Assembly (NCBI GenBank): GCA_015057025.1
Contig: SVFD01000006.1
Location: 124,001 to 188,000 of the forward strand
DNA: 64,000 nt
Reading direction: 5' to 3'
From: Lachnospiraceae bacterium
GTDB taxonomy: Bacteria; Bacillota; Clostridia; Lachnospirales; Lachnospiraceae
Position 1 is the stretch's first letter. Each line of letters opens with the position of its first letter. The notes under the pieces are model-generated. The model saw only the letters and a program-made list of their open reading frames with translations, did not search any database and had not been told where the DNA came from. Below, one piece after another: positions 47,506 through 61,250 of the stretch. Made by a program: the position numbers and the translations under genes.

Positions 47506-48234
47506 ATGAAGAAATTAGTGATAATCATGGCTACATTCATTATGAGTATGGCAATGTTGGTTGGATGTACAGGCGGTACAGAGGATGCGGAAGCGGCAGG
47601 TTCACAGGAACCGGTTAGTACAGAAGCAGAAGCTGAGGTGAATTCTGAGGAAGAGTCTGATGTTGTATCTGAGGATATTTCAGAAGAGGTTTCTGAAGAA
47701 GTAAGTGAAGAAGCAGAGGAAGCTGTTGATTATTCTGCTGAAGCGGTTATGGCACTTGTTGATGACTTAATTGCAAAGTATCCCAACGAGAATCCGGAAT
47801 ACATTAAGTCTGTAGTAATCGGAGCAAACATTGATTACATTACAGAAGATGATTTGAATACGATTCTGACCGCATACGGATATACGCTGGAAGATTTAAA
47901 TGTTTTGTTTGGGGAGTATATAGGAGATTTAATGAGTTGTTTTGTATTAACATTTGGTTATCATCAGGGTGGCGATGAACCTGAAGTGCTGTTTGATGAC
48001 AGAATGCCACTTTATGAAGTAACACTTAATAATAATGATATGGAATATATGAAGCTGGGATATTCGAGATATGACGAGGAATATGAACCGATTTCAGAAA
48101 ATTCTATAAAATTTGATGAATTCTATTATGACTCTGTAGACAAAGAACTTTATTCAAGCGGTATGATGGTGTGTGATGCCTTATGGACAGATTCTACAAT
48201 TTCTCCTTATACTAAATACATATCCGTAAATTAA
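47506..48234 (+). CDS. Glu/Ser-rich lipoprotein, function unknown
   Basis: A 242-residue predicted lipoprotein: signal MKKLVIIMATFIMSMAM and lipobox LVGC. A ~65-residue acidic linker rich in EVSEE repeats follows, then a C-terminal domain of no recognised family. No ligand-binding motif is seen. A 170-nt structured element begins 17 nt after its stop, so the transcript may carry that element in its 3' end. Confidence 0.75.
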   Translation: MKKLVIIMATFIMSMAMLVGCTGGTEDAEAAGSQEPVSTEAEAEVNSEEESDVVSEDISEEVSEEVSEEAEEAVDYSAEAVMALVDDLIAKYPNENPEYIKSVVIGANIDYITEDDLNTILTAYGYTLEDLNVLFGEYIGDLMSCFVLTFGYHQGGDEPEVLFDDRMPLYEVTLNNNDMEYMKLGYSRYDEEYEPISENSIKFDEFYYDSVDKELYSSGMMVCDALWTDSTISPYTKYISVN

Positions 48235-48597: not shown

Positions 48598-49545
48598 ATG
48601 AGCAAAAAAATCACAATCATTGGAGCCGGTAGCGTAGGTTCCACAATTGCGTACACACTTTCTCAGCAGGATATCGCCTCAGAAATCGTTCTGATTGATA
48701 TTAACAAGCAGAAAGTAGAAGGAGAAGTAATGGATATCGAACAGGGTACCTGTTTCCGTAATCCTATCAAAATTACAGCAGGTGAGTATGTTGATGCACA
48801 GGATTCAGACATCGTTATTATTACTTCAGGTATTGCTCGTAAGCCCGGTCAGACAAGAATTGAGCTTACGCAGACTAACGTTAACATTTTAAAGAGCATC
48901 ACACCCGAAATCGTAAAGTATGCGCCTAACGCACTTTACATCATCGTAAGCAATCCTGTTGACGTTATGACATATGTATTTACTAAGATTTCAGGACTTC
49001 CTGAGAACCAGATTATCGGTTCGGGTACAATCCTCGATACTGCACGTCTTCGTTGCGGACTTTCCGAACACTACAGCATTGCACAGAAGAATATCCATGC
49101 TTATGTATTTGGTGAGCACGGTGATACATCATTCATTCCCTGGTCAATCGCAAATGTTTGCGGTGTGCCTGCAGATGATTATGTAGGACTTGTTAAAAAC
49201 ATTGACAAAGATGTAAAAGAAGTAGATAAAGAAGCTATGATTACCTATGTACGTAAGTCAGGCGGACAGGTAATTGCTAACAAGGGCGCAACTTTCTATG
49301 CGGTTTCAGCATCTGTTTGTGCACTTTGCGGTATTTTAGCAGCTTCTGATGAATCTATGGCAACTGTATCTTCCATGATGCATGGCGAATACGGTATTGA
49401 AGATGTTTGTGTAAGTACATTAACATTAGTTGGACCTAAGGGTATTCAGGGTAAAGTACCCGTGAAGTTAACCGAAGAAGAAATCGGTAAGTTAAAGGCT
49501 AGTGCAGATGCACTCAAAGAAGTTATTGCTCAGATTGAATTATAA
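48598..49545 (+). CDS. mdh: malate dehydrogenase (LDH-like type)
   Basis: An NAD-dependent 2-hydroxyacid dehydrogenase of the LDH/MDH family, 315 residues. The Rossmann start IIGAGSVGSTIA, LDTAR (catalytic Asp147 and substrate Arg150) and GEHGD (catalytic His174) are complete. The specificity loop reads ARKPGQTR with Arg81 at the position that is Gln (residue 102) in lactate dehydrogenases and Arg in malate dehydrogenases. Context agrees: fumarase and fumarate reductase follow in the same operon. It would reduce oxaloacetate to malate. An automated LDH label is likely but probably wrong. Confidence 0.78.
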   Translation: MSKKITIIGAGSVGSTIAYTLSQQDIASEIVLIDINKQKVEGEVMDIEQGTCFRNPIKITAGEYVDAQDSDIVIITSGIARKPGQTRIELTQTNVNILKSITPEIVKYAPNALYIIVSNPVDVMTYVFTKISGLPENQIIGSGTILDTARLRCGLSEHYSIAQKNIHAYVFGEHGDTSFIPWSIANVCGVPADDYVGLVKNIDKDVKEVDKEAMITYVRKSGGQVIANKGATFYAVSASVCALCGILAASDESMATVSSMMHGEYGIEDVCVSTLTLVGPKGIQGKVPVKLTEEEIGKLKASADALKEVIAQIEL

Positions 49546-49589
49546 TTAATATACATTTTTATAAAATATAGGGAAAGGACAATAGAACT

Positions 49590-50384
49590 ATGAAGTACAG
49601 TTACTATCCGGGATGTACCCTTAGAACCAAGGCAAAAGACTTGGATGCATATGCAAGAGCTTCTGCAGTGGCTTTGGGATTCGAACTGGAAGAAATCGAG
49701 AACTGGCAGTGTTGTGGTGGTGTTTATCCTTTGGGATCTGATGAAATCGCAAGCAAGCTTTCTTCCGTTCGCGCCTTAAATGAGGCAAAAGAAAAAGGTC
49801 AGGATCTGGTAACCTTATGTTCAGCATGTCACCATGTTATTAAGCGTGTGAACGATGACATGAAGAATGTGGACGATATCCGTACCAGAGCAAACAATTA
49901 CATGCAGTTGGAAGAACCTTATGCAGGCGAAACAGAAGTGCTTCACTTTTTGGAAGTACTCCGTGACCGCGTAGGTTTTGACAAGATTAAAGAGAAAGTG
50001 GTTAATCCGCTTACAGGAAAGAAGATTGGTGCATATTACGGATGCCTCCTTCTTCGCCCCGGTAAGATTTTGGAATTTGATAATCCTGAGAATCCTACCA
50101 TCATTGAAGATTTTATCCGTGCAATCGGTGCAACACCGGTTGTATATCCTTACAGAAATGAATGCTGTGGCGGATACATATCTTTAAAAGAAAAAGACAT
50201 GTCTAAGAATATGTGTGAACGTATTATGGACAGTGCAGACGGAATGGGGGCTGAAATGCTCATCACAGCCTGCCCCTTATGTCTTTACAACTTAAAGAAG
50301 AACGGCAATGACAAGCTTCCTGTAGTTTACTTTACGGAATTGCTTGCAGAAGCTTTAGGAGTAAAAGAGGAGGTGGCTAAGTAA
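49590..50384 (+). CDS. hdrB: HdrB-like heterodisulfide reductase subunit B
   Basis: A 264-residue protein with two CCG domains. The cysteine sets (PGC, NWQCCGG with CSAC; YYGC, NECCGG with CPLC) would bind two non-cubane [4Fe-4S] clusters, the site of disulfide reduction in methanogen HdrB. This organism has no coenzyme M/B system, so the terminal acceptor must differ. Its stop overlaps the hdrC start by 1 nt. In methanogen thiol:fumarate reductase, TfrB carries a CCG part, so this subunit may act with the downstream fumarate reductase. Confidence 0.92.
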   Translation: MKYSYYPGCTLRTKAKDLDAYARASAVALGFELEEIENWQCCGGVYPLGSDEIASKLSSVRALNEAKEKGQDLVTLCSACHHVIKRVNDDMKNVDDIRTRANNYMQLEEPYAGETEVLHFLEVLRDRVGFDKIKEKVVNPLTGKKIGAYYGCLLLRPGKILEFDNPENPTIIEDFIRAIGATPVVYPYRNECCGGYISLKEKDMSKNMCERIMDSADGMGAEMLITACPLCLYNLKKNGNDKLPVVYFTELLAEALGVKEEVAK

Positions 50385-50773
50385 TGAATACAGCTAAAAA
50401 GCAGGCTGAATTAATTAAAGAAATCAGCGGTGTGAATCCTCTTAAGTGTATGAAATGCGGTAAGTGTTCCGCATCATGTCCTTCTTATAATGAAATGGAC
50501 ATTAAGCCTCATCAGTTCGTATCTTACGTGGTAAACGAGGACATCGAGGCTCTCGTAAATTCAAAATCATTATGGAAATGCCTTTCATGTTTTGCGTGTG
50601 TGGAACGTTGCCCCAGAGACGTTAAGCCCGGCAAGTTAATCGATGCTGCAAGACAGGTTGTTGTGCGTCAGAAGGGACAGGATTATCTGTCACCCAATGA
50701 AATTCCGGAACTTCTTGATCCGGAACTGCCTCAGCAGTTATTGGTTAGTGCATTCAGAAGATACAGGAGGTAA
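50384..50773 (+). CDS. hdrC: HdrC-like iron-sulfur subunit
   Basis: A 129-residue ferredoxin-like subunit with two [4Fe-4S] motifs, CMKCGKCSASCP and CLSCFACVERCP, linking HdrA to HdrB by electron transfer. It starts on the hdrB stop and is followed 5 nt later by hdrA, the order hdrB-hdrC-hdrA. Confidence 0.93.
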   Translation: MNTAKKQAELIKEISGVNPLKCMKCGKCSASCPSYNEMDIKPHQFVSYVVNEDIEALVNSKSLWKCLSCFACVERCPRDVKPGKLIDAARQVVVRQKGQDYLSPNEIPELLDPELPQQLLVSAFRRYRR

Positions 50774-50778
50774 GAAAC

Positions 50779-52767
50779 GTGCAGAGGATAGGTGTATTTG
50801 TCTGCCACTGCGGTAGCAATATTGCCGCTACGGTAGATGTGAAAAAAGTAGTTGAAATGGCACTGTTAGAGCCCGGCGTTGTCCATGCGGAAGATTACCA
50901 GTATATGTGTTCTGAAGCGGGTCAGGCAAAGATTCTCGAAGCAGTAAAAGAAAAAGGATTAACAGGCATCGTTGTATGTTCTTGTTCACCCCGTATGCAT
51001 GAAGCAACCTTTAGAAAGGCTGCAGAGCGTGCCGGTGTAAATCCTTACATGGTAGAAATTGCCAACATTCGTGAACATTGTTCATGGATTCATAAAGATA
51101 TGGAGGAAGCAACCAAGAAGGCTGTTATTCTTGCAAGAGCAGCTATCGCGAAGGTTAACTTAAATGCTCCCTTACAGCCCGGCGAGAGCCGCGTAACCAA
51201 GCGTGCATTGGTTATTGGTGGTGGTATCGCAGGTATCCAGACTGCAATCGACATTGCAGATGCAGGTTATGAAGTAGATATTGTAGAAAAGACACCCAGT
51301 ATCGGTGGTAGAATGTCACAGTTAGACAAGACATTCCCTACCCTTGACTGTTCAGCATGTATCCTTACACCGAAGATGGTGGAAGCTTCTGCTCATGAAA
51401 AGATTAACATCTATACATACAGCGAAGTTGAGAAGGTTACAGGTTTCGTAGGTGATTTTACTGTTGATATCCGTAAAAAAGCAAGAAGCGTAGATATGAA
51501 TAAGTGTACCGGTTGTGGCGTTTGTCAGGAAAAATGTCCTTCCAAAAAGGCTCCCAGCGAGTTTAATCGCGGACTTAACACAAGAAGCGCAATCTACACT
51601 CCTTTTGCACAGGCGATTCCTAACGTACCTGTTATTGACCGTGATGCTTGTCTTAAGTTCAAGACCGGTAAGTGCGGTTTGTGTGAAAAGGTTTGTCAGG
51701 CAGGCGCTATTGATTACGCTCAGCAGGATGAAATCATTACAGAGAAGTACGGCGCAATCGTAGTTGCTACCGGTTTTGATACCATCAAGCTTGATAACTA
51801 CGATGAATATGCATATAGCCAGAGCAAGGACGTTATCACTTCTCTTGAATTAGAACGTATTATGAATGCTGCAGGCCCCACAAAGGGTCACCTTGAACGT
51901 CTTTCTGACGGTAAGGCGCCCAAGGAGATGGTATTCATCCAGTGTGTAGGCAGCCGTTGTGCAGACAACAGAGGTAAGAGCTACTGTTCTAAGATTTGTT
52001 GTATGTATACTGCTAAGCACGCAATGTTAATTCGTGATAAGTATCCCGATGTAAACGTTACTGTATTTTACATTGACGTACGTACACCCGGTAAGAACTT
52101 CGATGAGTTCTACAGAAGAGCTGTTGAAGAATATGGTGTAAATTACATCAAGGGTCAGGTTGGTAAGGTTGCTCCTCTTCCCAATGGTAAGCTTTTGGTA
52201 CAGGGCGCAGACTTAATCGACAATAAGCAGATTTTAAAAGAGGCTGATATGGTTGTTCTTGCAACTGCAATCGAGCCCGATCCTTCCGTAAGAAAGATTG
52301 CTACAATGCTCACAGCCAGCATTGATACCAACAACTTCCTTACAGAAGCACATCCCAAGCTTCGTCCTGTAGAATCTCCTACAGCAGGTGTATTCTTATC
52401 AGGTGTATGTCAGGGACCTAAGGATATTCCCGAAACAGTTGCCCAGGCAGGTGCTGCTGCGGTTAAGGCAATCGGCTTACTTGCAAAAGATAAGTTGATG
52501 ACTAACCCTTGTACAGCAAAGGCTGACGAGCTTATGTGTAACGGATGTTCAACATGTGCTAACGTATGTCCTTATGGTGCAATCACTTATGAAGTTAAAC
52601 AGGTTAATGACCACGGTATCCGTGAAGACAGAAGAATTGCTGTTGTTAACAACGCTCTTTGTCAGGGTTGTGGTGCATGTACCGTTGTTTGTCCTTCAGG
52701 TGCTATGGACCTTCAGGGATTCTCGAATAGACAGATTCTTGCGGAGGTGGATGCAATATGTCGATAG
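50779..52767 (+). CDS. hdrA: HdrA-like bifurcating flavoprotein
   Basis: A 662-residue FAD/Fe-S protein. The N-terminal domain carries cysteine ligands (CHCGSN, CSCSP), the FAD-binding loop is VIGGGIAGIQTA near residue 147, an inserted ferredoxin has CTGCGVCQEKCP, and a C-terminal one has CNGCSTCANVCP and CQGCGACTVVCP. In the family this FAD splits electrons between a low-potential ferredoxin and a high-potential acceptor. GTG 50779 behind AGGAGG. Its stop overlaps flxD. Confidence 0.95.
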   Translation: MQRIGVFVCHCGSNIAATVDVKKVVEMALLEPGVVHAEDYQYMCSEAGQAKILEAVKEKGLTGIVVCSCSPRMHEATFRKAAERAGVNPYMVEIANIREHCSWIHKDMEEATKKAVILARAAIAKVNLNAPLQPGESRVTKRALVIGGGIAGIQTAIDIADAGYEVDIVEKTPSIGGRMSQLDKTFPTLDCSACILTPKMVEASAHEKINIYTYSEVEKVTGFVGDFTVDIRKKARSVDMNKCTGCGVCQEKCPSKKAPSEFNRGLNTRSAIYTPFAQAIPNVPVIDRDACLKFKTGKCGLCEKVCQAGAIDYAQQDEIITEKYGAIVVATGFDTIKLDNYDEYAYSQSKDVITSLELERIMNAAGPTKGHLERLSDGKAPKEMVFIQCVGSRCADNRGKSYCSKICCMYTAKHAMLIRDKYPDVNVTVFYIDVRTPGKNFDEFYRRAVEEYGVNYIKGQVGKVAPLPNGKLLVQGADLIDNKQILKEADMVVLATAIEPDPSVRKIATMLTASIDTNNFLTEAHPKLRPVESPTAGVFLSGVCQGPKDIPETVAQAGAAAVKAIGLLAKDKLMTNPCTAKADELMCNGCSTCANVCPYGAITYEVKQVNDHGIREDRRIAVVNNALCQGCGACTVVCPSGAMDLQGFSNRQILAEVDAICR

Positions 52768-53195
52768 AAAAAGAATTCAGACCTAAAATTGTAGCATTCT
52801 GCTGTAACTGGTGTAGTTACGCAGGTGCTGACCTTGCAGGCAGTAGCCGTTTGGCATATCCTGCAGATGTTAAGATTATTCGTGTGCCGTGTTCATGCCG
52901 TGTAAATCCTATGTTCATTCTTCGTGCATTTCAGAAGGGTGCAGATGGCGTTATCATGTGTGGTTGCCACCCCGGAGACTGCCATTACAGCACAGGTAAT
53001 TACTATGCAAGAAGACGTATGACATTATTATTCTCTATGCTTGATTACATCGGCGTAGAAAACGGCCGTACCCGTGTTGAATGGGTATCAGCTGCAGAAG
53101 GTGTGAAGTTCTCTACAACCATGAATGAATTCGTAGAGAAAATCCACTCTCTTGGTGAAAACGTAAGATTGGAGGATTTAAGATGCAAGAATTAG
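52758..53195 (+). CDS. flxD: FlxD/MvhD-like electron-transfer subunit
   Basis: A 145-residue MvhD-family [2Fe-2S] protein: CCNWCSYAGADLAG, VPCSCRVNP and CGCHPGDCHY are the expected cysteines. In other complexes it connects HdrA to the electron-input module. The start overlaps hdrA by 10 nt and its end overlaps flxC by 13 nt, so the operon is compact here. Confidence 0.9.
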   Translation: MSIEKEFRPKIVAFCCNWCSYAGADLAGSSRLAYPADVKIIRVPCSCRVNPMFILRAFQKGADGVIMCGCHPGDCHYSTGNYYARRRMTLLFSMLDYIGVENGRTRVEWVSAAEGVKFSTTMNEFVEKIHSLGENVRLEDLRCKN

Positions 53196-54157
53196 TAAAC
53201 CGCGCTAAAGAACTTCTTGCCGATGGTACCGTTGTTCGTGTACTTGGCTGGAAAGCCGGTGATTTGCCTTACAATCCCGAACCGGCTTACTTCACAAGCG
53301 CTGAAGAATTAGATAATTTCGTTTATAACGGATTTTGCGGTGCTAACCTTAGCAAGTATATGATTGAAGCTTCCAAGTTGGAAGGCAAGACCATGGTTTG
53401 TTTAAAGCCCTGTGATACATACAGCTTTAACCAGTTAATTAAGGAACATCGCGTAGACCGTGACAAAGCTTACATCGTAGGTGTAGGCTGTAAAGGTAAA
53501 TTGAATGTTGATAAAATCAAAGAAAAAGGCATTAAGGGTATCGAAAGTATTTCCGGTGCTGAAATGTCTGACGCATGCGATATATTGACAATTCAGACAC
53601 TTTACGGAGAAAAGACCTGCTCTTATGCAGAGGCAATGCTTGAGAGATGCCACGTATGTAAGGGTAAGGAACATATGATTTACGATGAAATCATCGGTGA
53701 ATCAAAGGATACCAAGGACGCAGAAAGATTTGCAGAAGTTGAAAAAATCGAAGCAATGAGTCCTGAAGAAAAGTTTGCATTCTTCCAGAAGGAATTAAGC
53801 AAATGTATCCGTTGCAATGCCTGCAGAAACGTATGTCCTGCATGTAGCTGCCGTAAGTGTGTATTCGACAGTACTAAGTTTGATACCGCACAGAAGGCAA
53901 ATGTGGATTCTTTTGAAGAGAAGATGTTCCACATTATCCGTGCATTCCACGTAGCGGGAAGATGTACAGACTGTGGCGAGTGCAGCCGTGTTTGTCCTCA
54001 GGGTATTCCTCTTCACTTATTCAACCGTAAGTTCATTAAGGATATTAATGAATTTTATGGTGAATTCCAGGCAGGTGCCGACAGCGAGGCAAGAGGACCT
54101 CTTACAAACTTTACATTTGATGACTGCGAACCCAGCATCGTAACAGAAAGGAGATAA
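53183..54157 (+). CDS. flxC: FlxC-like iron-sulfur protein
   Basis: A 324-residue protein with an N-terminal FrhB-like region and a C-terminal dicluster ferredoxin (CIRCNACRNVCP, then CTDCGECSRVCP); additional cysteines lie in CSCRKC. It matches the FlxC component of FlxABCD-HdrABC complexes by position and domain layout. The exact path of electrons through it is not established. Confidence 0.82.
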   Translation: MQELVNRAKELLADGTVVRVLGWKAGDLPYNPEPAYFTSAEELDNFVYNGFCGANLSKYMIEASKLEGKTMVCLKPCDTYSFNQLIKEHRVDRDKAYIVGVGCKGKLNVDKIKEKGIKGIESISGAEMSDACDILTIQTLYGEKTCSYAEAMLERCHVCKGKEHMIYDEIIGESKDTKDAERFAEVEKIEAMSPEEKFAFFQKELSKCIRCNACRNVCPACSCRKCVFDSTKFDTAQKANVDSFEEKMFHIIRAFHVAGRCTDCGECSRVCPQGIPLHLFNRKFIKDINEFYGEFQAGADSEARGPLTNFTFDDCEPSIVTERR

Positions 54158-54160
54158 TGT

Positions 54161-55192
54161 ATGTTTAAGATAGCAAAAGAAAATCTTTCCGCATTATTCT
54201 CCAAGATTGCGGAAAGCAATGAATTATATTTGCCCGTAAAAGTGGCTAATCAGACAAACTTTGCAAACTGGACAGAAGATGCAGAAGTAGATTTGGATAC
54301 TTTAAAAACTGTTAAATCTGCAAAAGATGCATTCTTCCCTCAGAGCGAAAACTTATATACCTGTACAAAGGAAGATAAGAAAATTAAGATTACCCCCGAA
54401 GAATTACAGGCACAGAACTTTGTCGTATTCGGCATGAAGGCTTGTGATGTTAAGGGTGTTGAGGTTTTAGACAAGGTATTCCTTGCAGAACCCGTTGATA
54501 CTTTTTATGCAGCAAGACGTGCACACGGTACTATTGTTGCACTTGCTTGTCATGAACCTGAAGAAACCTGCTTCTGTAAAGTATTTGGTACAGACTGCGC
54601 TGACCCTGTTGCTGACGTTGCAACATGGATGATTGACGGTGAACTTTACTGGAAAGCAATTACAGAAAAGGGTGAAGCATTAACCAAGGCTGTTGAAGGC
54701 TTATTGGTAAATGCAGATGAAGCGAAGGTAGAAGAGGAAAAGGCAGCAATTCGTGCAATCGTAGAAAAGCTTCCTTACTCTAACCTTTCATTGGAAGGTT
54801 GGAATGGCGACGTTCTTATGGAAAAGTTTGAATCTCCTGTTTGGGAAGAACTTTACAAGCCTTGTTTAGCATGCGGTACATGTACATTCGTATGTCCTAC
54901 CTGCCAGTGCTATGATATCAAGGATTATGATACAGGTCATGGTGTACAGCGTTATCGTTGCTGGGATTCATGTATGTATTCTGATTTTACAATGATGGCT
55001 CACGGTAATAACCGTACGAGCCAGATGCAGAGATTCCGTCAAAGATTTATGCACAAGTTAGTATACTTCCCTGCAAACAATGACGGTATGTACTCATGCG
55101 TAGGCTGCGGACGTTGTGTAGACAAGTGTCCTTCGTCCTTAAACATTGTAAAAGTAATCAAAGCTTTTGAGAATCAGGGAGGTAATGAATAA
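54161..55192 (+). CDS. flxB: FlxB-like iron-sulfur protein (sulfhydrogenase beta-like)
   Basis: A 343-residue protein with a sulfhydrogenase beta-like N-terminal region and a C-terminal dicluster ferredoxin: CLACGTCTFVCPTCQC and CVGCGRCVDKCP. This is the FlxB layout. It starts 4 nt after flxC and its stop overlaps the flxA start by 1 nt. Confidence 0.85.
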   Translation: MFKIAKENLSALFSKIAESNELYLPVKVANQTNFANWTEDAEVDLDTLKTVKSAKDAFFPQSENLYTCTKEDKKIKITPEELQAQNFVVFGMKACDVKGVEVLDKVFLAEPVDTFYAARRAHGTIVALACHEPEETCFCKVFGTDCADPVADVATWMIDGELYWKAITEKGEALTKAVEGLLVNADEAKVEEEKAAIRAIVEKLPYSNLSLEGWNGDVLMEKFESPVWEELYKPCLACGTCTFVCPTCQCYDIKDYDTGHGVQRYRCWDSCMYSDFTMMAHGNNRTSQMQRFRQRFMHKLVYFPANNDGMYSCVGCGRCVDKCPSSLNIVKVIKAFENQGGNE

Positions 55193-56046
55193 TGTGTGAA
55201 TGCAATTGTCATACAAATTATGAACTGGACACTTTGATTCCTAAGGTTGGTGTAATTACAGATATCCGTCAGGAGACACCGGATGTTAAAACATTCCGTG
55301 TAAATGCTCCCGAAGGTGGTAAGTTGTTTGAACATATGCCCGGACAGTGCGCAATGTTATGTGCCCCCGGTGTGAGTGAGGCTATGTTCTCTATTACATC
55401 TTCACCTACCAACAAGGAATTCCAGGAATTCAGTATTAAAAAATGTGGTCAGCTTACAGATTATCTTCACAGCCTCCAGGTTGGTGATGAAATTACAGTA
55501 AGAGGACCTTACGGAAATCATTTCCCGGTTGAAACAGAATTAAAAGGTAAGAACCTTTTATTCATCGCCGGTGGTATCGGTCTTGCGCCTCTCCGTTCCG
55601 TAATCAATTATGCAATTGATAACAGAGCGGATTACGGAACCATCGATATCCTTTACGGCTCACGTTCTGCAGATGACCTGGTTCAGTTAAAAGAAATCCA
55701 GGAATTGTGGATGAATACGGAAGGTGTTAATGTACACTTAACCATCGACCGTGAGCAGGAAGGCTGGGACGGACATGTAGGTTTCGTACCTGCATACTTA
55801 AAAGAACTTGAATTCTCTACAGATAAAACAGTTCTTGTCTGCGGACCGCCTATCATGATTAAGTTCGTTCTTCAGGGACTGAAGGAATTAGGTTTCAAGG
55901 ATGAACAGATTTACACTACCTTTGAGCTTCGTATGAAGTGCGGTATCGGTAAGTGTGGACGTTGTAACATTGGTTCTAAATATGTATGTAAGGACGGCCC
56001 TGTATTCCGTTTCGACGAAATAGATGAGCTGCCTAACGAATATTAA
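55192..56046 (+). CDS. flxA: FlxA-like NAD(P)H:FAD oxidoreductase
   Basis: A 284-residue ferredoxin-NADP reductase-fold protein: the FAD site has FSITSSP, the NAD(P)-binding segment FIAGGIGLAPLRS, the nicotinamide-binding VCGPPIM and a C-terminal [2Fe-2S] cluster (CGIGKCGRCNIG...C). It resembles PyrK and the sulfhydrogenase gamma subunit. In FlxABCD it is the NADH-oxidising entry point. With HdrABC it completes an NADH-driven bifurcating module. Confidence 0.9.
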   Translation: MCECNCHTNYELDTLIPKVGVITDIRQETPDVKTFRVNAPEGGKLFEHMPGQCAMLCAPGVSEAMFSITSSPTNKEFQEFSIKKCGQLTDYLHSLQVGDEITVRGPYGNHFPVETELKGKNLLFIAGGIGLAPLRSVINYAIDNRADYGTIDILYGSRSADDLVQLKEIQELWMNTEGVNVHLTIDREQEGWDGHVGFVPAYLKELEFSTDKTVLVCGPPIMIKFVLQGLKELGFKDEQIYTTFELRMKCGIGKCGRCNIGSKYVCKDGPVFRFDEIDELPNEY

Positions 56047-56085
56047 GAGGCATTTAATTAATTACGAAAGGACTGGTATTCCAAA

Positions 56086-56760
56086 ATGGAAAATATGGTA
56101 AATGTATACTTTTTTGGTAAGAAATACAGCGTACCTGCAGATTTAACAATCATGACAGCTATGGAATATGCAGGCTACACCTTAAACAGAGGATGTGGCT
56201 GCCGTCACGGTTTCTGCGGTGCATGTGCAACTATTTACAGAATCAAAGGTAAGAACGAGTTAAAGACTTGTCTTGCATGTCAGACACAGGTAGAAGAAGG
56301 AATGTATGTAGCAAGTATTCCTTTCTTCCCCACAGACAAGAGAACATATGATATTAATGAAATCAAACCTACACAGCAGATTATGATGGAACTTTATCCT
56401 GAAATCTATAGCTGTATCGGATGTAACGCATGTACAAAGGCTTGTACACAGGACTTAAATGTTATGCAGTACATTGCATACGCTCAGAGAGGCGAGTTTG
56501 AAAAGTGTGCAGAAGAGTCTTTCGACTGTGTAAGCTGTGGATGCTGTTCAGTAAGATGTCCCGCTGGTATTTCTCATCCTATGGTTGGTCTTCTTGCAAG
56601 ACGTCTTACAGGTAAGTACATTGCTCCCGAAACAGAGCATTTGAAAAACCGCGTTGAAGAAATCAACAAGGGTGCTTATGATGAGTTAATCGAGCAGATT
56701 ATGCAGAAACCCATCACAGAAATGCAGGAATTATACAACACAAGAGAAATTGAGAAATAA
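56086..56760 (+). CDS. frdB: fumarate reductase iron-sulfur subunit (FrdB-like)
   Basis: A 224-residue iron-sulfur protein with an N-terminal [2Fe-2S] site (CGCRHGFCGAC then CLAC) and two C-terminal clusters (CIGCNACTKACT and CVSCGCCSVRCP). This is the SdhB/FrdB and TfrB-N order. It lacks the CCG extension of TfrB, which is instead represented by the separate hdrB. No membrane anchor subunits (FrdC/FrdD) exist in the operon. Confidence 0.85.
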   Translation: MENMVNVYFFGKKYSVPADLTIMTAMEYAGYTLNRGCGCRHGFCGACATIYRIKGKNELKTCLACQTQVEEGMYVASIPFFPTDKRTYDINEIKPTQQIMMELYPEIYSCIGCNACTKACTQDLNVMQYIAYAQRGEFEKCAEESFDCVSCGCCSVRCPAGISHPMVGLLARRLTGKYIAPETEHLKNRVEEINKGAYDELIEQIMQKPITEMQELYNTREIEK

Positions 56761-56772
56761 GGAGGGATAAAT

Positions 56773-58374
56773 ATGTTTACAGCAGAAATGCAGGAATCCA
56801 TTAAAAAGGTGGAAGCTACAAGAGCAGAACGTATGAAAACCGAACCCAGACGTATGACCGCTGAGGAAAAGGATACCCTTCTGAAAGCTTACCATCCTGA
56901 CTACAGAGAAGATGGATTTGTAGAAATCAAAATCGGACCCAACAAGGGTCAGAAGGTTCCCACAGAATTAGGACACCTTCTTCATTCAAACAGCCGTCTT
57001 TTAACAGATAAGGTTGATTTAAACAAAGTTGATTATGACGTAGACGTACTTGTTATCGGTGGCGGTGGTGCAGGTTCTTCTGCAGCTATTGAAGCACACG
57101 AAGCAGGCGCTAATGTTATGATCGTTACAAAGCTTCGTATCGGTGATGCCAATACTATGATGGCTGAAGGCGGTATCCAGGCTGCAGATAAAGAAAACGA
57201 CTCACCTGTACAGCATTACCTTGATGCATTCGGTGGCGGACACTTCGCTGCAAGACCTGAACTTTTAAGACGTCTTGTTATGGAAGCTCCCGATGCAATC
57301 CAGTGGTTGAATAAGTTAGGTGTTATGTTCGATAAGGACGAAGACGGAAGAATGGTTACTACACATGGTGGTGGTACATCAAGAAAGCGTATGCATGCTT
57401 GTAAAGACTATTCAGGTGCAGAAATCATGCGTACACTTCGTGATGAAGTGTTAAACCGTCAGATTCCTGTTGTTGAATTTACTTCAGCAGTTGAATTAAT
57501 TAAAGATGAAAAGGGTCAGGTTGCAGGTGCAGTACTTCTTAACATGGAAACAGGCGATTACATGGTAGCTAAGGCTAAAACCGTTGTTATTGCAACAGGT
57601 GGTGCAGGTCGTCTCCACTACCAGAACTTCCCTACATCAAACCACTACGGTGCTACCGCTGACGGTTTGGTATTGGGATACCGTGCAGGTGCACCCCTTT
57701 TATACCAGGATACAATTCAGTATCACCCTACAGGTGTTGCTTACCCTGCACAGATCTTCGGTGCATTGGTAACAGAGAAGGTTCGTTCTCTTGGTGCTAT
57801 GCTTGTTAACGTAGATGGTGAAGCATTTATGCATCCCCTGGAGACCCGTGATGTTTCAGCTGCATCCATTATTCGTGAATGCTCTGATAGAGGTAAGGGT
57901 GTAACTACACCTCTTGGAAGCGGTGTATGGTTGGATACTCCCATGATTGAAATGATCGGCGGACCCGGAACCATCGAAAAGAGAATTCCTGCGATGCTTC
58001 GTATGTACTTAAATTACGACATCGATATGAGAAAAGAACCCATTTTGATTTACCCTACACTCCACTACCAGAATGGTGGTTTGGAAATCGGCGGAGACGG
58101 ATTCACCAAGGCAATCGACAACTTGTTAGTTGCAGGTGAAGCTGTTGGTGGTATCCACGGAAGAAACCGTTTGATGGGTAACTCATTACTTGACATCATT
58201 GTATTTGGCCGTAACGCAGGTAAGGCTGCAGCAGCTAAGGCTAAGACTGTTGAGTTGGGTACCATGAATATTGACCATGTGGCTGCATATGCTGAAGAGT
58301 TAAAGGCTGCAGGCATCGAATCTAACGATGTTTCACCTCTTCTTCTTCCTAAATACGCTCGTCACGAAAGATAA
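56773..58374 (+). CDS. frdA: soluble fumarate reductase/SdhA-like flavoprotein
   Basis: A 533-residue flavoprotein. FAD loop VLVIGGGGAGSSAAIEA near residue 92; the covalent-FAD histidine segment of SdhA/FrdA (RSHTVxAQGG) is replaced by DANTMMAEGG, so the FAD is likely non-covalent. YHPTG, TRDVSAASIIREC and GGIHGRNRLMGNSLLDIIVFGR are catalytic and structural segments. A ~88-residue N-terminal extension precedes the Rossmann fold, and the usual C-terminal helical domain is missing. L-aspartate oxidase is the main alternative, made less likely by the operon. Confidence 0.83.
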   Translation: MFTAEMQESIKKVEATRAERMKTEPRRMTAEEKDTLLKAYHPDYREDGFVEIKIGPNKGQKVPTELGHLLHSNSRLLTDKVDLNKVDYDVDVLVIGGGGAGSSAAIEAHEAGANVMIVTKLRIGDANTMMAEGGIQAADKENDSPVQHYLDAFGGGHFAARPELLRRLVMEAPDAIQWLNKLGVMFDKDEDGRMVTTHGGGTSRKRMHACKDYSGAEIMRTLRDEVLNRQIPVVEFTSAVELIKDEKGQVAGAVLLNMETGDYMVAKAKTVVIATGGAGRLHYQNFPTSNHYGATADGLVLGYRAGAPLLYQDTIQYHPTGVAYPAQIFGALVTEKVRSLGAMLVNVDGEAFMHPLETRDVSAASIIRECSDRGKGVTTPLGSGVWLDTPMIEMIGGPGTIEKRIPAMLRMYLNYDIDMRKEPILIYPTLHYQNGGLEIGGDGFTKAIDNLLVAGEAVGGIHGRNRLMGNSLLDIIVFGRNAGKAAAAKAKTVELGTMNIDHVAAYAEELKAAGIESNDVSPLLLPKYARHER

Positions 58375-58427
58375 AAGAGAGCGATTTTACAGAAGAGAAT
58401 GGTCAAAAAATAATGTATGTTTTTGTC

Positions 58428-58457
58428 GGGCGAAGGCGTTGGAAAACGTTTTCGCCC
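58428..58457 (+). repeat. 13-bp hairpin with GGAA tetraloop between frdA and the carrier
   Basis: GGGCGAAGGCGTT, loop GGAA, AACGTTTTCGCCC (two G-U pairs). No T-run follows, so it is not a terminator. It may set relative expression of the enzyme genes and the carrier gene by mRNA processing or stability. The other bases of the 58375-58497 gap show nothing clear. Confidence 0.8.
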
Positions 58458-58497
58458 CGCAATGCGTAAATATATTGTATGAGGAAGGAAAAAAATT

Positions 58498-59754
58498 ATG
58501 TCACTTTTTGGTGGTGTGATTCCCATTACAGGAATTACATTTTTAATGTTTAGTCTTTTAATTATTACTTTCCTTGGTTATGCACTTGGACGTATTTCCG
58601 TTAAAGGTGTAAACCTTGGTACAGCAGGTGTATTTATCGTAGCGCTTCTTTACGGATGTTTCTTCTTTGAGCCTTTAAGCGCACAGCTTACCGTAAAAGC
58701 AGCAGATGGTACTGCAGTAAACTACGCAGAAAATGCACTTAAAATTATTGAAAATCTTGGTTTGATTTTCTTTGTAACTTCCGTAGGCTTTATTGCCGGA
58801 CCGAAGTTCTTCGGTAACATGAAGAAAAACTTTAAGTCATACGTTATGTTAGGTCTTGTGGTTATTATCGGTGGCGGTCTTGCTGCAATCGGATGTATTT
58901 TTCTCGGAAGATGGTTACAGCCTGATGTACCCCACGATGAATTAACAGCTATGGTTGTTGGTCTTCTTTCAGGTTCCTTAACTTCAACCCCTGCATTCTC
59001 GGCAGCAAAGGCTACTGTAGACCCGGCATTGGAGGGGATTGTATCTGTAGGACATGGTATTGCATATTTGTTTGGTGTTATCGGTGTAGTACTTTTTGTA
59101 CAGTTAATTCCTAAATTCATGAAAGCAAATATGGACGAAGAAAGAGCAAAGCTTGTTCAGGCGTCTGACGGTGAAGAAAAGAAATATGACGGTAAGTTAA
59201 TTGAACTTGATGGCTTTGGTATTGCACCTTTTGCACTTGCGGCAGTAATCGGTATCTTTGTTGGTATGATTAAGGTGCCTTTGAGTGCTCAGGGCTTAAG
59301 CGGAACCACTTTTGCATTAACAACAACCGGTGGTTGTCTTTTGACTTCTTTGGTGTTTGGTCATTTTGGAAGAATCGGTAAAATCAGCATTATGCCTTCA
59401 GAAACTACATTAAAAGTATTCCGTGAATTAGGTCTTATGCTTTTCCTTATTGGTGCAGGTATCCCGGGTGGTGCTGAATTCGTTGCTGAATTCCATGTAT
59501 TATACTTTGTATACGGTGTAATTATGACAATCGTTCCGATGATTCTCGGATTCCTTTTTGCAAAATATGTTGTAAAGTTAAGTCTTTTAAACAACCTTGG
59601 TTCAATTACAGGTGGTATGACAAGTACACCTGCACTTGGAACCTTAATTAACACAGCAGGAACAGAAGACGTTGCGGCAGCTTATGCAGCTACATATCCT
59701 ATCGCTTTGATTTCAGTTGTTCTTGTATCACAGTTCTTAATCATCTTGTTTTAA
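58498..59754 (+). CDS. aspartate:alanine exchanger (AAEx) family membrane carrier
   Basis: A 418-residue carrier of about ten helices built from two repeated Asp-Al_Ex domains (GLLSGSLTSTPAFSAA and LGSITGGMTSTPALGT are the matched GxxT-STPA motifs). The family includes AspT and the succinate exporter SucE of Corynebacterium. Following fumarate reductase in the operon, it is a candidate C4-dicarboxylate exporter. The substrate has not been shown. AGGAAGGA ribosome site. Confidence 0.82.
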   Translation: MSLFGGVIPITGITFLMFSLLIITFLGYALGRISVKGVNLGTAGVFIVALLYGCFFFEPLSAQLTVKAADGTAVNYAENALKIIENLGLIFFVTSVGFIAGPKFFGNMKKNFKSYVMLGLVVIIGGGLAAIGCIFLGRWLQPDVPHDELTAMVVGLLSGSLTSTPAFSAAKATVDPALEGIVSVGHGIAYLFGVIGVVLFVQLIPKFMKANMDEERAKLVQASDGEEKKYDGKLIELDGFGIAPFALAAVIGIFVGMIKVPLSAQGLSGTTFALTTTGGCLLTSLVFGHFGRIGKISIMPSETTLKVFRELGLMLFLIGAGIPGGAEFVAEFHVLYFVYGVIMTIVPMILGFLFAKYVVKLSLLNNLGSITGGMTSTPALGTLINTAGTEDVAAAYAATYPIALISVVLVSQFLIILF

Positions 59755-59790
59755 TTATTTAATATTAACAACTTTAAAAGGAGAAAAATT

Positions 59791-60633
59791 ATGCGCGAAA
59801 TTAACGTAAGTAATGTAACTGACGTTGTTGAAAAGCTTTGTATCGATGCAAATACACATCTTCCCGAAGATGTAAAATGTGCAATCAAGAATTGCCGTGC
59901 ATGCGAAGATGGCGAAATTGCTAAAGGCGTATTAGACAACATCATTGAAAACTTTGAAATCGCTGATAATGAGAATGTGCCCATTTGTCAGGATACAGGT
60001 ATGGCTTGTGTATTCTTGGAGATCGGTCAGGATGTTCACTTTGTAGGCGGAGATTTAACAGACGCTATTAACGAAGGTGTACGTCGCGGTTATGATAAGG
60101 GATATTTAAGAAAGTCCGTTGTAAAAGATCCCGTAAGACGCGGTAATACAGGTGATAATACTCCGGCTATGATTTATACAGAAATCGTTCCCGGCGAAAA
60201 TGTTAAAATTACTGTAGGACCTAAGGGCTTCGGTAGCGAGAACATGAGTGCAATCAGAATGTTCAAGCCTTCTCACGGTATTGAAGGTATTAAAGATTTT
60301 ATCATTGAGACTGTTGAAACAGCAGGCCCTAACCCCTGCCCGCCTATGGTAGTAGGTGTTGGTATCGGCGGTACTTTTGATAAGGCTGCCTTACTTGCTA
60401 AGAAAGCACTTATGCGCCCTATCGATTCTGAGAATCCTGATCCTTACTATGCAGACCTTGAAAAAGAAATGCTTGAAAAGATTAACGAACTTGGTATCGG
60501 ACCTCAGGGCTTTGGCGGTAGAACAACTGCTATCGGCCTTAACATTGAAACTTTACCTACCCACATTGCAGGTATGCCTTGTGCAATCAATATTAACTGC
60601 CATGTAACCCGTCATAAATCGGAGGTGATCTAA
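59791..60633 (+). CDS. fumA: fumarate hydratase, alpha subunit (class I, two-subunit)
   Basis: Class I (Fe-S) fumarase N-terminal subunit of 280 residues. The [4Fe-4S] cysteine ligands include CQDTG, near residue 66, and further conserved cysteines. [11 protein letters not shown] and [17 protein letters not shown] are family segments. Converts malate to fumarate together with the next gene, whose start overlaps its stop by 1 nt. Related tartrate dehydratases share the fold, but the operon supports fumarase. Confidence 0.9.
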
Positions 60634-61193
60634 TGGAGAAGCATATTACATTACCTTTAACTGAAGAATTAGCTAAAACATTACATGCAGGTGATACCGT
60701 ATATTTAACAGGTACTATTTATACATCACGTGATGCAGGTCACAAGAGAATGTGTGAAGCACTTGCTAAGGGTGAACCCCTGCCCATGGACCCTACAGAC
60801 GCAACTATTTACTATGTAGGACCTACTCCTGCAAAACCTGGTCAGGTAATCGGTTCTGCAGGTCCTACCACCAGCGGACGTATGGATGCTTATGCACCTA
60901 CAATGATGTCTGTTGGCGCAAGAGGTATGATTGGTAAAGGAGCTCGTTTACCTGAAGTTATTGAGGCAATGAAGAAATACAATGGTGTATACTTTGGTGC
61001 TATCGGTGGTGCAGGTGCGCTTCTTGCAAAATGTATTAAGAAGGCTGAGCTTATTGCATATGAAGATCTTGGTGCGGAAGCATTAAGAAAGCTTTACGTA
61101 GAGGAAATGCCTTTGGTTGTTATCATTGACAGCGAAGGAAATAATCTTTACGAAGAAGGCAGAGCAGCATATCTTGCACAGAGAAATAAATAA
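60633..61193 (+). CDS. fumB: fumarate hydratase, beta subunit (class I, two-subunit)
   Basis: C-terminal subunit of the split class I fumarase, 186 residues: LPLTEELAKTLHAGDTVYLTGTIYTSRDAGHKR, GPTTSGRMDAY and GAIGGAGALLA are typical. It ends the operon and is followed by a strong terminator. Confidence 0.92.
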   Translation: MEKHITLPLTEELAKTLHAGDTVYLTGTIYTSRDAGHKRMCEALAKGEPLPMDPTDATIYYVGPTPAKPGQVIGSAGPTTSGRMDAYAPTMMSVGARGMIGKGARLPEVIEAMKKYNGVYFGAIGGAGALLAKCIKKAELIAYEDLGAEALRKLYVEEMPLVVIIDSEGNNLYEEGRAAYLAQRNK

Positions 61194-61208: not shown

Positions 61209-61250
61209 GACCATTGCAATAATTTTTTGTTGCAATGGTCATTCTTTTTT
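61209..61250 (+). terminator. intrinsic terminator ending the operon
   Basis: GACCATTGCAA / TTGCAATGGTC (11 bp, 10-nt loop) followed by ATTCTTTTTT. It closes the mdh-to-fum operon 16 nt after fumB. Confidence 0.92.

Follow-up and report, generated by a model that had tools for sequence, protein, structure and literature searches.

Introduction

Ferredoxin-linked fumarate reduction has already been proposed for Pseudoclostridium thermosuccinogenes, in which a 'succinate operon' joins a seven-gene Flx-Hdr module to a two-gene fumarate reductase, together with a fumarase and a putative transporter (PMC7282089). A related idea, direct shuttling of electrons from Flx-Hdr to a thiol:fumarate reductase, has been suggested for tubeworm symbionts (PMC6315080), and PMC9044749, a source for CRISPRi in P. 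thermosuccinogenes, names fumarate reductase in a pathway legend only. Here we describe an operon of similar composition from a Lachnospiraceae bacterium (GenBank assembly GCA_015057025.1, contig SVFD01000006.1, forward-strand positions 124,001 to 188,000; this whole stretch of 64,000 nucleotides is the window, to which all coordinates refer). Its core, hdrBCA-flxDCBA-frdBA, places a FlxABCD-HdrABC-type module directly before a two-subunit fumarate reductase, and we consider it probable, judging from sequence comparison, that the operon encodes a cytoplasmic NADH:fumarate,ferredoxin oxidoreductase ending a succinate fermentation.

An initial annotation of this DNA had arrived at the same function and had thought it potentially a distinct way of conserving energy. 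The operon is real and conserved and probably has the function proposed; the claim to novelty fails, both the idea and an equivalent operon having been published (PMC7282089), with a related idea in PMC6315080. No report of a purified bifurcating fumarate reductase was found in the literature searched, which was covered mostly at title level and with few subscription papers. What is new here is good comparative support for a partnership between HdrB/C and FrdBA, together with the broad spread of the operon in gut Clostridia.

Results

A conserved thirteen-gene operon

The operon consists of 13 open reading frames (ORFs), all on the + strand, at 48598-61193 in the ORF list of the window (Table 1). 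Gaps between neighbours range from -13 to +44 bases, the sole exception being the 123 bases between frdA and the carrier gene, and the 3' stretch after the operon, which holds a terminator-like hairpin, is more stably folded than its shuffled versions (z = -5.47, 200 shuffles). The thirteen codirectional, closely packed genes and the strong terminator of the initial annotation are thus borne out, and domain searches agree with the names it gave to the genes for Hdr, Flx, the carrier and fumarase. The terminator scan as a whole was at chance (12 sites, 10.7 expected), as was the promoter scan (36 sites, 39.7 expected), and an Rfam scan of the window gave no match at gathering thresholds.

Conservation of gene order was assessed in three samples, namely 200 genomes of the family (including the source genome), 391 genomes of the class, and the genome_contigs set; these share some genomes, as contigs of identical length in both collections show, and the counts partly overlap. 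Besides the source genome, the family sample includes 18 genomes with a full-length FrdA orthologue, none below 69% identity; the matches ranking next have partial coverage only and at most 42% identity. The order hdrBCA-flxDCBA-frdBA is intact in all 16 family loci of sufficient length (two more are too short) and in 39 of 40 such class loci (11 more are too short, and the count leaves out G394, whose FrdA is split over two contigs); the single deviating locus is rearranged to frdBA-hdrBCA-flx. In genome_contigs, at least 560 stretches encode some FrdA relative at E <= 1e-3, whether orthologous or not, and among the best 80 of these, at 75-99% identity and including Blautia, Mediterraneibacter, Dorea, other Lachnospiraceae and Oscillospiraceae, the order is intact in 55 of the 55 loci that are long enough. 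A search for genomes carrying hdrBCA-flxDCBA directly before frdBA, suggested in the initial annotation, therefore finds them in each sample, and because the nine-gene order is kept across many genera and families, the core is not a chance arrangement.

The nearest named record among the loci compared, L073 (a Lachnospiraceae metagenome-assembled genome from water deer caecum), has 89-91% DNA identity across the operon. Distribution within the window's own genus is patchy, because one member, G120, has a distant FrdA homologue only (31%, locus L053); that genome yielded no closer homologue, and the 18 kb examined at L053 contain none of the other operon genes. Rank correlation of per-gene identity with that of FrdA is 0.53 for FlxB/FlxC, 0.52 for FrdB, 0.46 for HdrA, 0.41 for FlxA, 0.38 for HdrB, 0.36 for HdrC, 0.24 for FlxD, 0.20 for the malate dehydrogenase (MDH)-like enzyme, 0.11 for FumA, 0.06 for FumB and 0.04 for the carrier; all identities being relative to one reference, these values are suggestive, and no conclusion rests on them.

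Co-occurrence of FrdA and HdrB

In the same 391 class genomes, source genome included, and with thresholds of E <= 1e-60 for FrdA and E <= 1e-40 for HdrB, both proteins occur in 52 genomes, FrdA alone in 2, HdrB alone in 2 and neither in 335. The four mismatched genomes are 62, 75, 77 and 88% complete; among the 318 with completeness of 90% or more and contamination of no more than 5%, FrdA is present in 43 and HdrB in the same 43. A Fisher test on this co-occurrence takes no account of common descent, and its p value is not to be read literally. HdrB of any kind was found in 156 genomes of a phylum sample of 398, and the search is therefore able to detect HdrB without FrdA. HdrBs of at least 313 bits occur in 28 phylum genomes, all FrdA-positive (a threshold chosen after the scores were known, with an HdrB model built from HdrBs neighbouring FrdBA), and in 7 of these 28 the high-scoring HdrB lies on another contig or distant from frdBA.

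The reductase and the Hdr-Flx module

FrdBA is a pair of the fumarate reductase type, as initially annotated, but not an ordinary FrdA and FrdB. The best NCBIfam match of FrdA is the TfrA model (335.1 bits, cut-off 718), and this match ends at position 426 of 546, much as coverage of TIGR01812 stops at 423 of 568; FrdA thus lacks the C-terminal helical domain that is typical of this family, while about 85 extra N-terminal residues stand ahead of the flavin fold. In an alignment of 34 sequences (the window's FrdA and 33 relatives at 53-91% identity), H318, E335, R359, H431 and R466 are invariant in all 34; in the alignment with Escherichia coli SdhA they correspond to the catalytic residues. 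As the five residues are invariant and the operon includes a fumarase, fumarate as the substrate of FrdA is supported by comparison. Position 127, where succinate dehydrogenases and fumarate reductases have the FAD-linking His, is Asn in 34 of 34 sequences, which suggests non-covalent FAD and, by analogy, a reductase rather than a succinate oxidase. Position 198, the Glu of the NadB motif REGGH, is His in 31 of 34, Phe in 2 and Lys in 1; succinate dehydrogenases and fumarate reductases have Phe there. FrdB retains C39, C44, C47, C65 and two CxxCxxCxxxC motifs in 35 of 35 aligned sequences.

Three other identities were considered and rejected. L-aspartate oxidase, named in the initial annotation as an identity that would overturn its reading, conflicts with a TIGR00551 score of 254.4 against 452.75, with His198 in place of Glu, and with a separate, true NadB, encoded next to nadC and nadA and scoring 540.3 bits (cut-off 472); apart from this NadB, no further FrdA homologue was found in the source genome. 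TfrA itself is set aside on its score against cut-off and on the lack of a CCG match in FrdB, and a membrane-anchored quinol:fumarate reductase on the missing C-terminal FrdA domain, the missing covalent-FAD His and the lack of an anchor gene in the operon.

The input module has the parts of a FlxABCD-HdrABC complex: a two-CCG HdrB, a full-length HdrA with an MvhD-like FlxD, FAD and NAD domains in FlxA, and iron-sulfur FlxB and FlxC. HdrB aligns with the solved HdrB 9sfi_C (E 1.4e-34), its two CCG motifs are intact, none of their ten cysteines varying among 24 aligned sequences, and CCG family matches in the source genome occur at this HdrB site only. Residues 3-660 of HdrA align with the solved 5odc_A at 678.6 bits, the latter being the HdrA of the bifurcating methanogen complex. 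No Flx-named model was matched in NCBIfam and Pfam-type searches of the operon proteins; the Flx names used here were assigned from domains and gene order.

Companion genes and host genome

The first gene, annotated initially as MDH-type, does belong to the lactate/malate dehydrogenase family, but NCBIfam cut-offs favour L-lactate dehydrogenase (343.9 bits against 339, and 326 against 303.55), and it falls narrowly under one malate dehydrogenase model (277, cut-off 283). Its Arg81, in SGIARKPGQTR, stands where four of five solved lactate dehydrogenases compared have Gln and one has Arg; this is the substrate-specificity position, at which Arg favours malate, and malate dehydrogenase is the preferred, tentative assignment. 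Automatic annotation would call this gene L-lactate dehydrogenase, despite the Arg.

The 'own malate/fumarate supply and exporter' of the initial annotation is present in the window and a variable extra elsewhere. Counting homologues of the window's own genes, so that other fumarases or carriers are missed, and among suitable loci of genome_contigs, family and class respectively, a fumarase lies beside the core in 37/43, 7/11 and 10/29, an MDH in 32/43, 10/11 and 22/29, and the carrier in 28/43, 6/11 and 17/29; all three occur together in 18/43, 4/11 and 4/29.

The source genome (2.65 Mb, 15 contigs, 97.9% complete) encodes PEP (phosphoenolpyruvate) carboxykinase and, for Rnf, one RnfC above cut-off. 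Directly upstream of the operon, at 47506-48234, lies an ORF for an acidic lipoprotein-like protein without a Pfam match.

Table 1. Genes and terminator-like element of the operon, in window coordinates
Position	Strand	Assignment	Domain or profile evidence
48598..49545	+	NAD-dependent L-malate (or L-lactate) dehydrogenase, LDH/MDH family	Ldh_1_N/Ldh_1_C
49590..50384	+	HdrB: two CCG domains, two non-cubane 4Fe-4S sites	PF02754 twice
50384..50773	+	HdrC: two 4Fe-4S clusters	TIGR03290 66.9 bits, below cut-off; Fer4 models
50779..52767	+	HdrA: FAD protein with ferredoxin domains, presumed bifurcation site	
52758..53195	+	FlxD, MvhD/FlpD-like	PF02662 183.5 bits
53183..54157	+	FlxC, 4Fe-4S protein	Fer4_8; position/order
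54161..55192	+	FlxB, 4Fe-4S, related to sulfhydrogenase beta subunit/AsrA	NF040829 197.6 bits, below cut-off; Fer4_22
55192..56046	+	FlxA, FAD/NAD(H)-binding entry subunit	PF00175, PF00970, PF10418
56086..56760	+	FrdB: one 2Fe-2S and two 4Fe-4S sites	PF13510, Fer4_7/9
56773..58374	+	FrdA: fumarate reductase flavoprotein, 533 residues	PF00890 (FAD_binding_2) 238.5 bits, residues 91-472
58498..59754	+	AspT/YidE-family carrier, possible succinate exporter	PF06826 (Asp-Al_Ex); TIGR01625 above cut-off
59791..60633	+	Class I fumarase alpha subunit	NF004885 426.6 bits, cut-off 276; Fumerase
60633..61193	+	Class I fumarase beta subunit	NF005310 288.2 bits, cut-off 238; Fumerase_C
61209..61240	+	Rho-independent terminator-like hairpin, T-rich tail	14 pairs; longest stem of terminator scan

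FrdBA beside other partners

Across the phylum sample, 39 places with full-length FrdA were examined (38 genomes besides the source genome), 33 of them with enough DNA; HdrA and HdrB lie nearby in 14 of the 33, hdrCB only in 4 and no Hdr gene in 15. In the second group (L193, L195, L197 and L286), hdrCB adjoins frdBA without hdrA or flx nearby, fumAB lies upstream in three of the four, and no gene for a thiol/disulfide carrier was recognised in the clusters. Each of these four genomes encodes a full-length HdrA elsewhere (55-57% identity), which in G827, G625 and G934, the three that could be matched from coordinates, lies directly downstream of another HdrB, and the HdrCB next to frdBA in those genomes is therefore an additional, separately kept copy. 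HdrA could act on it in trans.

The 15 Hdr-free loci belong to 14 genomes, 10 of which have HdrB elsewhere. In 9 of the 10 it belongs to an hdr-flx cluster, complete in 8 and truncated by a contig end in 1; in the tenth, G951, the analysis covered a single one of the HdrB-bearing contigs. At one Hdr-free locus, L196, a malic enzyme neighbours frdBA. In a quick, thinned FrdA tree (64 of 114 rows, many forks open), the presence or absence of hdr changes at least 5 times. A quick, midpoint-rooted HdrB tree of 41 rows groups the window type with the hdrCB type and with the unlinked HdrBs of f96, f151 and f152, while the HdrBs of cytochrome-type genomes stand apart and the frd-linked L205 falls among them.

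Several loci show the same FrdBA family in other company: multihaem cytochromes, FMN-binding or other iron-sulfur proteins, or a b561-type cytochrome at L198, L203, L207, L208 and L209 (Pfam was applied to L198, L208 and one L209 gene, other neighbours being judged by eye). At L192 (4948-8178) and L205, a large HdrA-like protein, of 1076 residues with Pyr_redox_2 in L192 and 1489 residues in L205, lies beside hdr genes, flxD and frdBA; by eye the neighbours resemble kor and sucCD, giving the cluster a look of the reverse tricarboxylic acid (TCA) cycle. G671 has two FrdA paralogues (L203, L204), with FrdB not detected beside the L204 copy.

Discussion

Overall, we favour a route in which the operonic fumarase and MDH-like enzyme would supply fumarate, and NADH would enter at FlxA and pass its electrons through FlxBCD to the flavin of HdrA, where the pair would be split, one electron going to ferredoxin and the other first to HdrC, then across the pair of non-cubane clusters in HdrB to FrdB, and finally to the FrdA flavin. 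HdrB, with HdrC, is the likely direct donor to FrdBA, because hdrCB-frdBA clusters lack hdrA and flx and because the two proteins co-occur in 52 of the 56 class genomes that have either; the clusters also suggest that the hand-over to FrdB would need no dedicated carrier gene. The comparison thus speaks for two proposals of the initial annotation, namely that HdrB passes electrons to FrdBA and that NADH, Flx, Hdr and Frd form a soluble unit without membrane anchor, no anchor gene being found in the operon. Also in its favour are the intact order of the core, the presence of Rnf and PEP carboxykinase, and the hdr-flx clusters elsewhere in 9 of the 14 genomes with an Hdr-free frdBA locus. The least certain step is the use of HdrB as an electron relay and not as a disulfide reductase.

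The sum would be 2 NADH + fumarate + oxidised ferredoxin -> succinate + 2 NAD+ + reduced ferredoxin, computed at -49 to -33 kJ per mol succinate from standard potentials for NADH and fumarate and with ferredoxin at -420 to -500 mV (a range of -400 to -500 mV is given in PMC12773636). Reoxidation of the reduced ferredoxin by Rnf would then yield about 0.56 ATP for each succinate, if, as in PMC12773636, an Rnf turnover (2 e-) moves 2 H+ and one ATP costs 3.6 H+. Under CO2 limitation the equivalent operon of P. thermosuccinogenes rises about 4-fold, although the change is not significant for every subunit, and H2 suppressed succinate in an older study of that organism (both in PMC7282089).

Several observations weigh against this route. 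The same older study found that a redox potential lowered by Na2S acted opposite to H2 (in PMC7282089). Related genomes share ancestry, and the order and co-occurrence counts are not independent events. HdrB, HdrC, HdrA, FlxB, FlxA, FrdB and FrdA all score under the cut-offs of their nearest NCBIfam models. Nearly half of the phylum loci (15/33) have frdBA without any Hdr gene nearby, and HdrB was not found in 5 of the 39 FrdA-positive phylum genomes, four of which (G949, G651, G869 and G648) are 99% complete each. At L198, frdBA lies beside a NapC-type multihaem cytochrome and an FMN-binding iron-sulfur protein, and at L208 beside a cytochrome b561-type iron-sulfur fusion. Because FrdBA is found without HdrB and beside cytochromes, it appears to be modular and able to work without Hdr, which is then not an obligatory donor, and the dependence is not universal. 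Lastly, HdrB retains every residue for disulfide chemistry, which makes a disulfide or thiol carrier a possible acceptor.

This last point leads to an alternative that we regard as unlikely, wherein Flx-HdrABC bifurcates to a small thiol/disulfide carrier and FrdBA is separate, merely co-regulated or itself thiol-using. It would account for the conservation of both CCG motifs in HdrB (24/24) and for genomes that have FrdBA without HdrB, and it agrees with the description of Flx-Hdr as feeding ferredoxin and thiols (PMC7282089). In the class, however, HdrB and FrdA are nearly inseparable (52/56), leaving no thiol role apart from fumarate in view, and the hdrCB-frdBA clusters have no recognised carrier gene. 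Less probable still is that the same proteins work without bifurcation, both NADH electrons going to fumarate, as has been assumed for Blautia luti. For this organism, PMC12773636 reports succinate, high frdAB transcription and methyl-viologen:fumarate activity in extracts and models an NADH-dependent fumarate reductase in its 2026 ATP balance; 'hdr' and 'heterodisulfide' have zero occurrences in its main text. B. luti MSK.16.34, which may differ from the strain of that paper, carries our operon (L118). B. luti also encodes another FrdAB of more classical type, next to which lies a small hydrophobic ORF (L324:1572-4362), and the published activity is therefore not assignable to one enzyme; moreover, HdrA is full-length and close to a solved HdrA, and without bifurcation the many extra subunits would be superfluous. 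We give very little credence to a substrate other than fumarate (aspartate, urocanate or other enoates): His at position 198, neither the Glu of NadB nor the Phe of succinate dehydrogenases and fumarate reductases, would suit one, but the TIGR00551 score, the true NadB in the genome, the five invariant catalytic positions and the operonic fumarase all argue against it.

The bifurcating route may also be one instance of a wider arrangement, to which we would assign slightly less than even chances, wherein FrdBA is a self-contained 'plug' reductase joined to varied electron suppliers and the Flx-HdrABC of gut Clostridia serves FrdBA only, its disulfide job lost and the paired non-cubane clusters of HdrB acting as a wire from a bifurcating flavin to fumarate. 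With similar reserve, the suppliers could comprise Flx-HdrABC, an HdrCB pair, an HdrA-like fusion, and multihaem or b-type cytochromes.

If the bifurcating reading is true, succinate formation in many gut Lachnospiraceae and Oscillospiraceae would be coupled to ferredoxin reduction, and to ATP synthesis where Rnf is present, and ATP balances built on a simple NADH-dependent fumarate reductase, such as that for B. luti (PMC12773636), would be too low by roughly half an ATP per succinate, provided the operon enzyme operates there. A proposal made for one thermophile becomes testable in cultured gut strains. It also draws attention to the role that the non-cubane clusters play in an HdrB without a known disulfide substrate.

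Among known systems, the FlxABCD-HdrABC of Desulfovibrio vulgaris, to which both PMC7282089 and PMC6315080 refer, is the same seven-gene input module; a thiol acceptor has been proposed for it, and it is not known to have a fumarate reductase partner. Methanogen TfrAB, whose TfrA is the best NCBIfam match of FrdA, likewise pairs a CCG domain with a fumarate reductase, whereas here the CCG domains lie in HdrB and are not fused to FrdB, and FrdA is without the C-terminal profile part. Among NCBIfam models HdrB scores highest (145.2 bits) with SdhE, the CCG subunit of the 8-methylmenaquinol:fumarate reductase SdhABE, but the window proteins fall far under the cut-offs (500 for SdhE, 1100 for SdhA). 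In tubeworm symbionts and Thioflavicoccus mobilis, flxABCD-hdrABC is interspersed with a two-subunit fumarate reductase, tfrAB, but these are Gammaproteobacteria with a reverse TCA cycle and the 2-oxoglutarate:ferredoxin oxidoreductase korABCD (PMC6315080). The operon of P. thermosuccinogenes, although it belongs to a thermophile, has its fumarase at the other end and lists no MDH among its genes in the text available, is by gene-list comparison alike in clustering Flx-Hdr, a two-gene Frd, a fumarase and a transporter, and it is the system for which the same coupling has been proposed (PMC7282089).

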